Of a stretch of 42,095 nt of DNA, positions 16,970 through 17,567 are shown piece by piece. The first letter of the stretch is position 1; each line of letters begins with the position of its first letter. The stretch comes from Bacilli bacterium. Lineage in GTDB: Bacteria; Bacillota_I; Bacilli_A; RF39; UBA660. The notes under the pieces are model-generated. The model saw nothing but the letters and a program-made list of their open reading frames with translations. It did no database searches and had not been told where the DNA came from. The stretch is taken from NCBI GenBank assembly GCA_017434825.1, contig JAFSGC010000020.1, positions 1 to 42,095 of the forward strand, in the 5' to 3' direction. The position numbers were made by a program, and so were the translations under genes.

Positions 16970-16982
16970 AATTTTCCTCCTT

Positions 16983-17120
16983 AAAATAAAAAAATCTCAT
17001 AAAATATAAGGACGAGTTTTACCCGCGGTACCACCTTATTTTATGAGATTATCATACACTTTAATGTTAACGCCATCAACGATTTGAAATGGAAAGTTGT
17101 AAGTTTTCCTTCGCTTCAAC
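16983..17120 (-). ncRNA. T-box riboswitch leader of tyrS, with very short Stem I
   Basis: The T-box sequence GGTGGTACCGCGGGT is at 17021-17035 on the minus strand. It lies inside a terminator whose arms are 17037-17049 and 16994-17006 (13 bp), followed by a run of seven T residues (16987-16993). A promoter at 17127-17155 places the transcript start near 17120, only about 85 nt before the T-box. At the 5' end, TTGAA (17115-17119) can pair with TTCAA (17084-17088), and GGAAA/TTTCC (17105-17109 with 17091-17095) close a loop with a UAC Tyr codon at 17099-17101, followed by A as in known specifier loops. A further stem TTGATG/CATTAA can form before the antiterminator. The T-box call is certain; the short Stem I model is inference. 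Confidence 0.9.
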
Positions 17121-17126
17121 AAACTA

Positions 17127-17155
17127 ATTATAACCAAAATTTACTAATATTGCAA
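17127..17155 (-). promoter_or_regulatory. Sigma-A promoter of tyrS
   Basis: TTGCAA (17150-17155) and TATAAT (17127-17132) on the minus strand, separated by 17 bases. It sets the predicted 5' end of the T-box leader near 17120. Confidence 0.75.
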
Positions 17156-17259
17156 ATAATATTATAATTTTTAATATTCGCAGTATAATATTATGCTTTT
17201 ACTAAATTTTATATAGATATTTATTAATATTTTCTAGAACAAATTATAAAATTGGTAAT

Positions 17260-17288
17260 TTGCACAAGAAAATTATTATTGTTATACT
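17260..17288 (+). promoter_or_regulatory. Promoter of the 27-residue peptide gene
   Basis: TTGCAC (17260-17265) and TATACT (17283-17288) are 17 bases apart. The predicted transcript starts near 17295, just before the leader sequences that form the hairpin at 17320-17340. Confidence 0.7.
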
Positions 17289-17308
17289 TCCATTCGGAGC
17301 ATTCAATT

Positions 17309-17340
17309 GTTAGGTGTTTGCCTCTTTTTTGAAAGGAGGC
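17309..17340 (+). promoter_or_regulatory. Leader with Shine-Dalgarno-sequestering hairpin
   Basis: Bases 17320-17328 (GCCTCTTTT) pair with 17332-17340 (AAAGGAGGC), nine pairs with one G-T and a 3-nt loop. The very strong Shine-Dalgarno AAAGGAGG (17332-17339), eight bases before the ATG, is wholly inside the stem. The preceding GTTAGGTGTTT (17309-17319) is exactly complementary to 17438-17448 after the gene, and its first eight bases recur as a direct repeat at 17454-17461. Confidence 0.8.
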
Positions 17341-17347
17341 TGATTTT

Positions 17348-17431
17348 ATGAGTAAAAAAGATTGTTTAATCTTTTTCCTTATTCTCATTATTTTCCTTTT
17401 AATATTATTACTATTTATTGTTTTAATTTAA
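17348..17431 (+). CDS. 27-residue hydrophobic peptide, probable type I toxin
   Basis: The ATG at 17348 opens a 27-codon frame: a short charged start (MSKKD) and then an uninterrupted hydrophobic helix of Leu, Ile, Phe and Val to the end (last residues FIVLI). The Shine-Dalgarno AAAGGAGG is near-perfect with an eight-base gap but is locked in a hairpin. A strong promoter drives the gene, and a second promoter faces it from the other side. Small single-helix membrane peptides with sequestered ribosome binding sites and an antisense RNA are the hallmark of type I toxin-antitoxin loci such as Fst, TxpA and BsrG. No family match is claimed. It could also be a small sporulation membrane peptide; the RNA layout favours a toxin. 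Confidence 0.75.
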   Translation: MSKKDCLIFFLILIIFLLILLLFIVLI

Positions 17432-17461
17432 AAGAAAAAACACCTAACTTTTAGTTAGGTG
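17432..17461 (-). terminator. Terminator for the antisense RNA and the lipid kinase gene
   Basis: Eight-bp stem CACCTAAC / GTTAGGTG with a 5-nt loop; on the minus strand it is followed by TTTTTTCTTTT. On the plus strand there is no T-run, so the hairpin is directional. Confidence 0.8.
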
Positions 17462-17532
17462 ACAACAAATAGGCAACACCCAACTCTGAAAAATTGAATG
17501 TTCCTTTTTCATTTTATGAAGTTTCCTTCATT
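17432..17532 (-). ncRNA. Predicted antisense RNA to the peptide gene
   Basis: A promoter at 17539-17567 predicts a minus-strand transcript from about 17532. The hairpin CACCTAAC / GTTAGGTG (17441-17461) followed on the minus strand by TTTTTTCTTT is a good terminator near 17432. The RNA of about 100 nt would be antisense to the 3' part of the toxin mRNA. It also carries CACCTAAC, complementary to GTTAGGTG in the toxin leader (17309-17316). It holds no reading frame of note. The same hairpin would also end the lipid kinase transcript. Confidence 0.6.
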
Positions 17533-17538
17533 AAATAT

Positions 17539-17567
17539 ATTATATAATATTTATTATTGACCATCAA
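17539..17567 (-). promoter_or_regulatory. Promoter of the antisense RNA
   Basis: Minus strand TTGATG (17562-17567), 17-base spacer, TATAAT (17539-17544). The -35 lies inside the last codons of the lipid kinase gene. Confidence 0.65.

Follow-up and report, generated by a model that had tools for sequence, protein, structure and literature searches.

Among described T-box riboswitches, class I combines an IDTM, the elbow-binding distal part of Stem I, with Stem II, class II combines an IDTM with a linker and is found only for Gly, and classes III and IV have no IDTM; the IDTM and Stem II, singly or together, augment tRNA binding, and class III requires Stem II (PMC10482949). A truncated ileS Stem I shows hardly any tRNA binding unless Stem II is present, only A-U-rich codons make Stem II essential, and transcriptional T-boxes generally require an IDTM (PMC7583486), with speed given as the reason in current reviews. 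The statements on the need for Stem II and an IDTM count against the explanation preferred below.

The tyrS leader described here lies in a window of 42,095 nucleotides, the whole stretch of DNA that was analyzed. Like the class III ileS leaders of Nocardia farcinica and Mycobacterium tuberculosis, it has a short Stem I without an IDTM and a codon in the apical loop (PMC10482949, PMC10651847, PMC7583486), and the IIA/B pseudoknot of those leaders is also kept in the Tyr ultrashort form. However, class III has Stem II with an S-turn, neither of which occurs in the ultrashort Bacilli forms, and its apical loop is 5-6 nt according to the published descriptions compared, against 9 nt (Tyr) or mostly 7-9 nt (Gly) here. 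Class III also acts by Shine-Dalgarno sequestration, for Ile, in Actinobacteria, whereas the forms described here carry a transcription terminator and Tyr, Asp, Asn, or Gly codons in Bacilli. The class II glyQS leader of Bacillus subtilis likewise has no Stem II and ends in a transcription terminator, and it shares its tRNA identity with the Gly member of the present group, but it is glycine-specific, with a long Stem I bearing an IDTM and a linker for Stem II, whereas the tyrS leader has a short Stem I and a Tyr codon. The class I tyrS leader of B. subtilis has the same regulated gene, codon, T-box, Stem III, and terminator, yet its long Stem I with IDTM and its Stem II with S-turn are both absent here. 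A UAC leader without IDTM or Stem II that, as predicted from its sequence, acts on a terminator is thus a form that fits no published class.

One part of the TBDB description mentions class I matches with a predicted truncated Stem I, re-modeled by its class II (translational) model, and some of these may overlap with the ultrashort leaders (PMC7778990). Text searches of open papers returned no transcriptional T-box lacking both IDTM and Stem II, and novelty of the reduced architecture is likely, not proven.

Architecture of the tyrS leader

The whole leader occupies window positions 16988-17120 on the minus strand, upstream of tyrS (Table 1). It contains an antiterminator with a UGGN bulge, and both the specifier and the bulge agree with the amino acid of the gene and with base 73 of the tRNA (UAC; UGGU/ACCA), as the tRNA-Tyr of the same genome has the anticodon GUA and the 3' end ACCA. 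The terminator hairpin (-20.7 kcal/mol, z -4.07, for the fold of 16983-17060) shares sequence with the antiterminator strand, making the two forms mutually exclusive.

Table 1. Features of the tyrS leader and its gene, in window coordinates
Feature	Position	Strand	Details and basis
tyrS, tyrosyl-tRNA synthetase, 408 aa	15743-16969	-	ORF; homologues in 59 of 60 relatives
Promoter TTGCAA-17-TATAAT	17127-17155	-	Start expected near 17120; sequence; -10 box equally spaced in 17 of 18 homologous leaders
Ultrashort Stem I, 36 nt	17084-17119	-	Covariation, 15 distinct leaders
Stem I lower helix	17119-17115/17088-17084	-	
Stem I upper helix	17109-17105/17095-17091	-	
Stem I apical loop, 9 nt	17104-17096	-	ACUUACAAC
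Specifier UAC (Tyr)	17099-17101	-	Preceded by U (17102), followed by A A C (17098-17096)
Stem IIA/B pseudoknot	17061-17081	-	CG (17081-17080)/CG (17072-17071); loop UUGAUG with CAUUAA
Stem III	17042-17062	-	Purine string AAAGUG (17062-17057); helix UAUGA/UCAUA; Rfam alignment, conserved in A1
T-box sequence	17037-17023	-	AAGGUGGUACCGCGG
Antiterminator	17007-17038	-	T-box bulge UGGU (17033-17030) complements tRNA-Tyr ACCA
Intrinsic terminator	16988-17050 (hairpin 17050-16993)	-	AAUCUCAUAAAAUA / UAUUUUAUGAGAUU plus U tract; sequence, folding
Shine-Dalgarno AAGGAGG	16976-16982	-	Outside terminator; sequence

Alignment to the Rfam T-box model RF00230 (cmscan) spans the full model, AAGGUGGUACCGCGG...CGUCCUUA, at 57.6 bits (E 6.7e-12), although about 80 positions of Stem I are deleted. 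The curated gathering score of RF00230 is 93, and the run at that score returned zero matches for the tyrS leader, so that a permissive search was required and a standard annotation run would omit it. The low score results from the missing Stem I positions, and the threshold concerns searching rather than any biological feature; other ultrashort T-boxes score 36.9-66.4 bits against the same model where reported. A previous sequence-only reading had described the T-box and terminator and had placed the promoter, as well as a hairpin of about 36 nt with UAC in its loop, and both its description and its coordinates are right. To that account we add that Stem II is absent, that the IIA/B pseudoknot and Stem III are retained, and that Asp and Gly versions occur in the same genome.

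Between Stem I and IIA the gap is 0-3 nt in the Tyr leaders examined, leaving Stem II absent, and the Tyr, Asp, and Gly ultrashort forms all lack both IDTM and Stem II. With a length of about 85-115 nt, these forms seem to be some of the smallest RNA switches that sense tRNA seen to date. The IIA/B pseudoknot of the Tyr form has a loop-tail helix of 5.4 pairs on average (14 leaders), compared with 4.3 in shuffled controls (0/1000) and 4.2 with swapped partners; the Gly form is without IIA/B, the Asp form is without a clear Stem III, and the K-turn is degenerate in the genus of the window. Some long T-boxes of the family (L117, L118, L121, and L002), for Tyr and other amino acids, also run from Stem I directly to IIA/B without Stem II. 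Further upstream, a 54-aa ORF (17224-17388) and a hairpin (17320-17340) lie between a diacylglycerol-kinase-like gene and the tyrS promoter, unlike in the closest relative, G003, where efp directly precedes the tyrS leader (locus L015).

Sister elements and the specifier loop

The same genome encodes 13 T-boxes, ten long and three ultrashort, the other two ultrashort elements being located before hisS-asnS-aspS (specifier GAC) and, via a small ORF, before glyS (GGC). Specifier and bulge agree with the corresponding tRNA for Tyr (UAC/UGGU; tRNA-Tyr GUA, A73), for Asp (GAC/UGGC or UGGU; tRNA-Asp GUC, G73), and for Gly (GGC/UGGA; tRNA-Gly GCC, U73). In genome G001 the operon is hisS-asnS, with aspS missing, and the loop codon is AAC (Asn) instead of GAC, the Asn bulge likewise having C or U to match G73. 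This codon switch, together with the agreement between bulge and base 73, indicates that the loop triplet is the working specifier.

The ultrashort loops follow the pattern N-U-[codon]-R, mostly with A as the next base, which matches the pattern of the tRNA anticodon loop (U33, R37, often A38). U directly precedes the codon in 18/18 Tyr leaders, in 9/9 Asp/Asn leaders, and in 14/15 of the Gly leaders that were located through their gene. Against this pattern, the exceptional Gly leader (L290) has A at that position, and the second position after the codon is often U in the Gly form. In contrast, the family's long Asp leaders have A before the codon in 14/14 cases and U in 0/14, and long Tyr leaders have A in 7/10 and U in only 3/10. 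The difference between ultrashort and long leaders is marked for Tyr (Fisher p 1e-4) and for Asp (9/9 vs 0/14; 1/817190 by counting), although the sequences share ancestry and the counts are not fully independent.

The most probable explanation, in which we have considerable confidence on comparative grounds, is that this leader is a Tyr-specific T-box riboswitch controlling tyrS transcription in which an anticodon-like loop would take the place of the IDTM and Stem II. Comparison among leaders supports its structure and conservation, the matching codon and discriminator, the terminator output, and the loss of IDTM and Stem II; tRNA binding, antitermination, kinetics, and the response to charging we infer from the T-box family. 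The nascent leader would fold a short hairpin whose loop offers UAC to the GUA anticodon of tRNA-Tyr. The N-U-[codon]-R loop, as a mimic of U33 and R37, would make a U-turn and pre-stack the codon for loop-loop pairing. Uncharged tRNA-Tyr would then pair its ACCA end with UGGU and hold the antiterminator, permitting transcription of tyrS, whereas with charged tRNA-Tyr the terminator would form. From the loop sequences we infer that affinity comes from this anticodon-like loop, pre-shaped for loop-loop pairing and possibly aided by a fourth pair, U-A37, in place of IDTM or Stem II contacts.

The strongest competing account shares all other steps with this mechanism and is not mutually exclusive with it. 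In that account, the missing affinity would come not from a U-turn loop but from additional pairs with the anticodon loop (U-A37, plus U-A38 if the -2 base is U). The U before the codon and the A37 of the own-genome tRNAs concerned are consistent with such pairing, as are Tyr loops of the form UUUACA, which could pair with U33-A38. However, many Tyr, Asp, and Gly loops have a -2 base other than U (C, G, or A), G occurs at +1, and A37 of tRNA is usually modified, and we consider extended pairing without a U-turn somewhat unlikely. As the own-genome Tyr, Asp, Asn, and Gly tRNAs all have A37, covariation cannot separate a fourth U-A37 pair from a U-turn, and the U of the codon loop could reflect the former instead of the latter.

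Comparative evidence for the short Stem I

Across 15 distinct tyrS leaders, the nine Stem I pairs have 95.6% paired cells and 37 double-change cells, with changes on both sides in seven of the nine. The lower helix alone occurs as UUGAA/UUCAA, UUAAC/GUUAA, UUAGC/GCUAA, and UUGAC/GUCAA. The covariation score is 0.730, compared with 0.318 +- 0.035 for shuffled alignments (0/500); the elements were excised by hand, which biases toward structure, but the maximum of 0.234 in a slid control makes this unlikely to be the cause. Alignment A5 holds one erroneous letter, at an unpaired column (L091, column 8). The Gly Stem I also covaries (1.029 vs 0.346 +- 0.065 shuffled).

The short leader is common to all members of the genus that have a tyrS T-box, and model R1, built from the leaders of the genus, identified more short ones elsewhere in the family, in genera other than this one, placed ahead of tyrS either directly or with a HAD gene in between (L111-L116, L120, L125, and L127). 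Matches of R1 outside the family, such as L122 and L130, are long leaders with similarity confined to the 3' half, and they were discarded. UAC and the preceding U are invariant in 18 tyrS leaders, and in 17 of these 18, drawn from several genera of one family, the -10 box lies 21-25 nt upstream of the specifier loop.

These data bear on whether the leader might be a decayed, unresponsive T-box surviving as a constitutive attenuator. Such decay would fit the absence of IDTM, Stem II, and a clear K-turn, as well as the ordinary fold of Stem I from a single sequence (53-nt stretch, z +0.76). We nevertheless regard it as improbable, given the strong covariation, a Tyr codon that is invariant with its flanks across genera, the codon switch that follows operon content, and the like handling of three amino acids.

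A canonical long T-box, in which transcription would start farther from the gene and 17120-17280 would contain a diverged Stem I, is less probable again. Long Tyr leaders do exist in other genera and before a second tyrS of the same assembly, and long leaders within the family clearly carry the IDTM marks AGAGA and GGTTGGTG. Neither motif was found in 17121-17560, the 440 nt upstream of Stem I, in agreement with the sequence-only reading, which had noted no long Stem I with distal motifs, and the homologous leaders are short as well. The promoter position is also conserved among homologous leaders, the lower helix that closes the hairpin covaries, and in G003 efp ends about 70-80 nt ahead of Stem I, too close for a long Stem I to fit. 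There is equally little chance that the leader acts on translation as the actinobacterial ileS leaders do, for although its apical specifier resembles class III, it has a terminator with a U tract, as that reading also held, the Shine-Dalgarno sequence lies outside the terminator, and Stem II is missing. Judged by comparison with its homologues, the tyrS leader is a genuine and conserved transcriptional T-box whose reduced architecture places it outside the named classes.

Evolution and significance

Mapping the ultrashort or long label onto the tyrS tree takes five changes, and well-supported branches force at least four of them, indicating that the ultrashort form was gained or lost repeatedly or that leaders or genes were exchanged. 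A second tyrS, 76% identical, is found in the same assembly behind a CYTH-like gene and has a long Tyr T-box (G000:C4:5706-7700; L002, L330); as the assembly has a contamination of 5.8%, the presence of long and ultrashort Tyr T-boxes in one cell is not certain.

A broader proposal, to which we would give slightly less than an even chance, is that these elements represent a fifth T-box architecture with neither elbow contact nor Stem II. Its entire first contact with tRNA would be between two kissing anticodon-like loops, that of the leader mimicking U33 and R37, and this contact would form quickly and tightly enough to permit a decision at the time of transcription. Within a single family of gut Bacilli, the architecture would have been repeatedly gained or lost, in Tyr, Asp/Asn, and Gly versions. 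A natural class without IDTM and Stem II would test what an RNA minimally needs to read a tRNA and assess it, and its small size is convenient for structural and kinetic work and for engineering. The family also offers a natural comparison, with both long and ultrashort leaders preceding the same gene, and the use of the standard model at its cut-off overlooks such elements in annotation.

Distribution of the ultrashort form

Ultrashort Gly T-boxes are widespread in the family. Those passing the model thresholds were present in 15/395 genomes of a class sample and 7/392 of a phylum sample, all in family f1. The regions upstream of glyS in a gene-anchored sample yielded 15 ultrashort cases, partly overlapping the model-found genomes, while other families in that sample had long leaders or none. 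In the samples searched, the ultrashort form thus appears confined to one family of uncultured gut Bacilli, which we take to be probably a member of the GTDB order RF39. A motif scan of named genomes gave at least about 64 Gly elements, in MAGs labeled uncultured Bacilli, Tenericutes, Mycoplasmatota, or Erysipelotrichaceae. As the scan pattern itself requires a U ahead of the codon and AA behind it, these elements were excluded from the loop statistics.

Several ultrashort Gly T-boxes lie ahead of genes other than glyS (L145, L192, L194, L216, and L183), and one with a UGGA bulge (L096; G277:C2:45128-45222) is directly upstream of a prolyl-tRNA synthetase-like gene. The L145 type, with the bulge context GGTGGAACAGCG and without Stem III, is the most reduced form seen. 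At L345, a hisS leader carries an AAC specifier and precedes a non-standard Asp/Asn-tRNA synthetase-like gene; this may be a further case of switched specificity.
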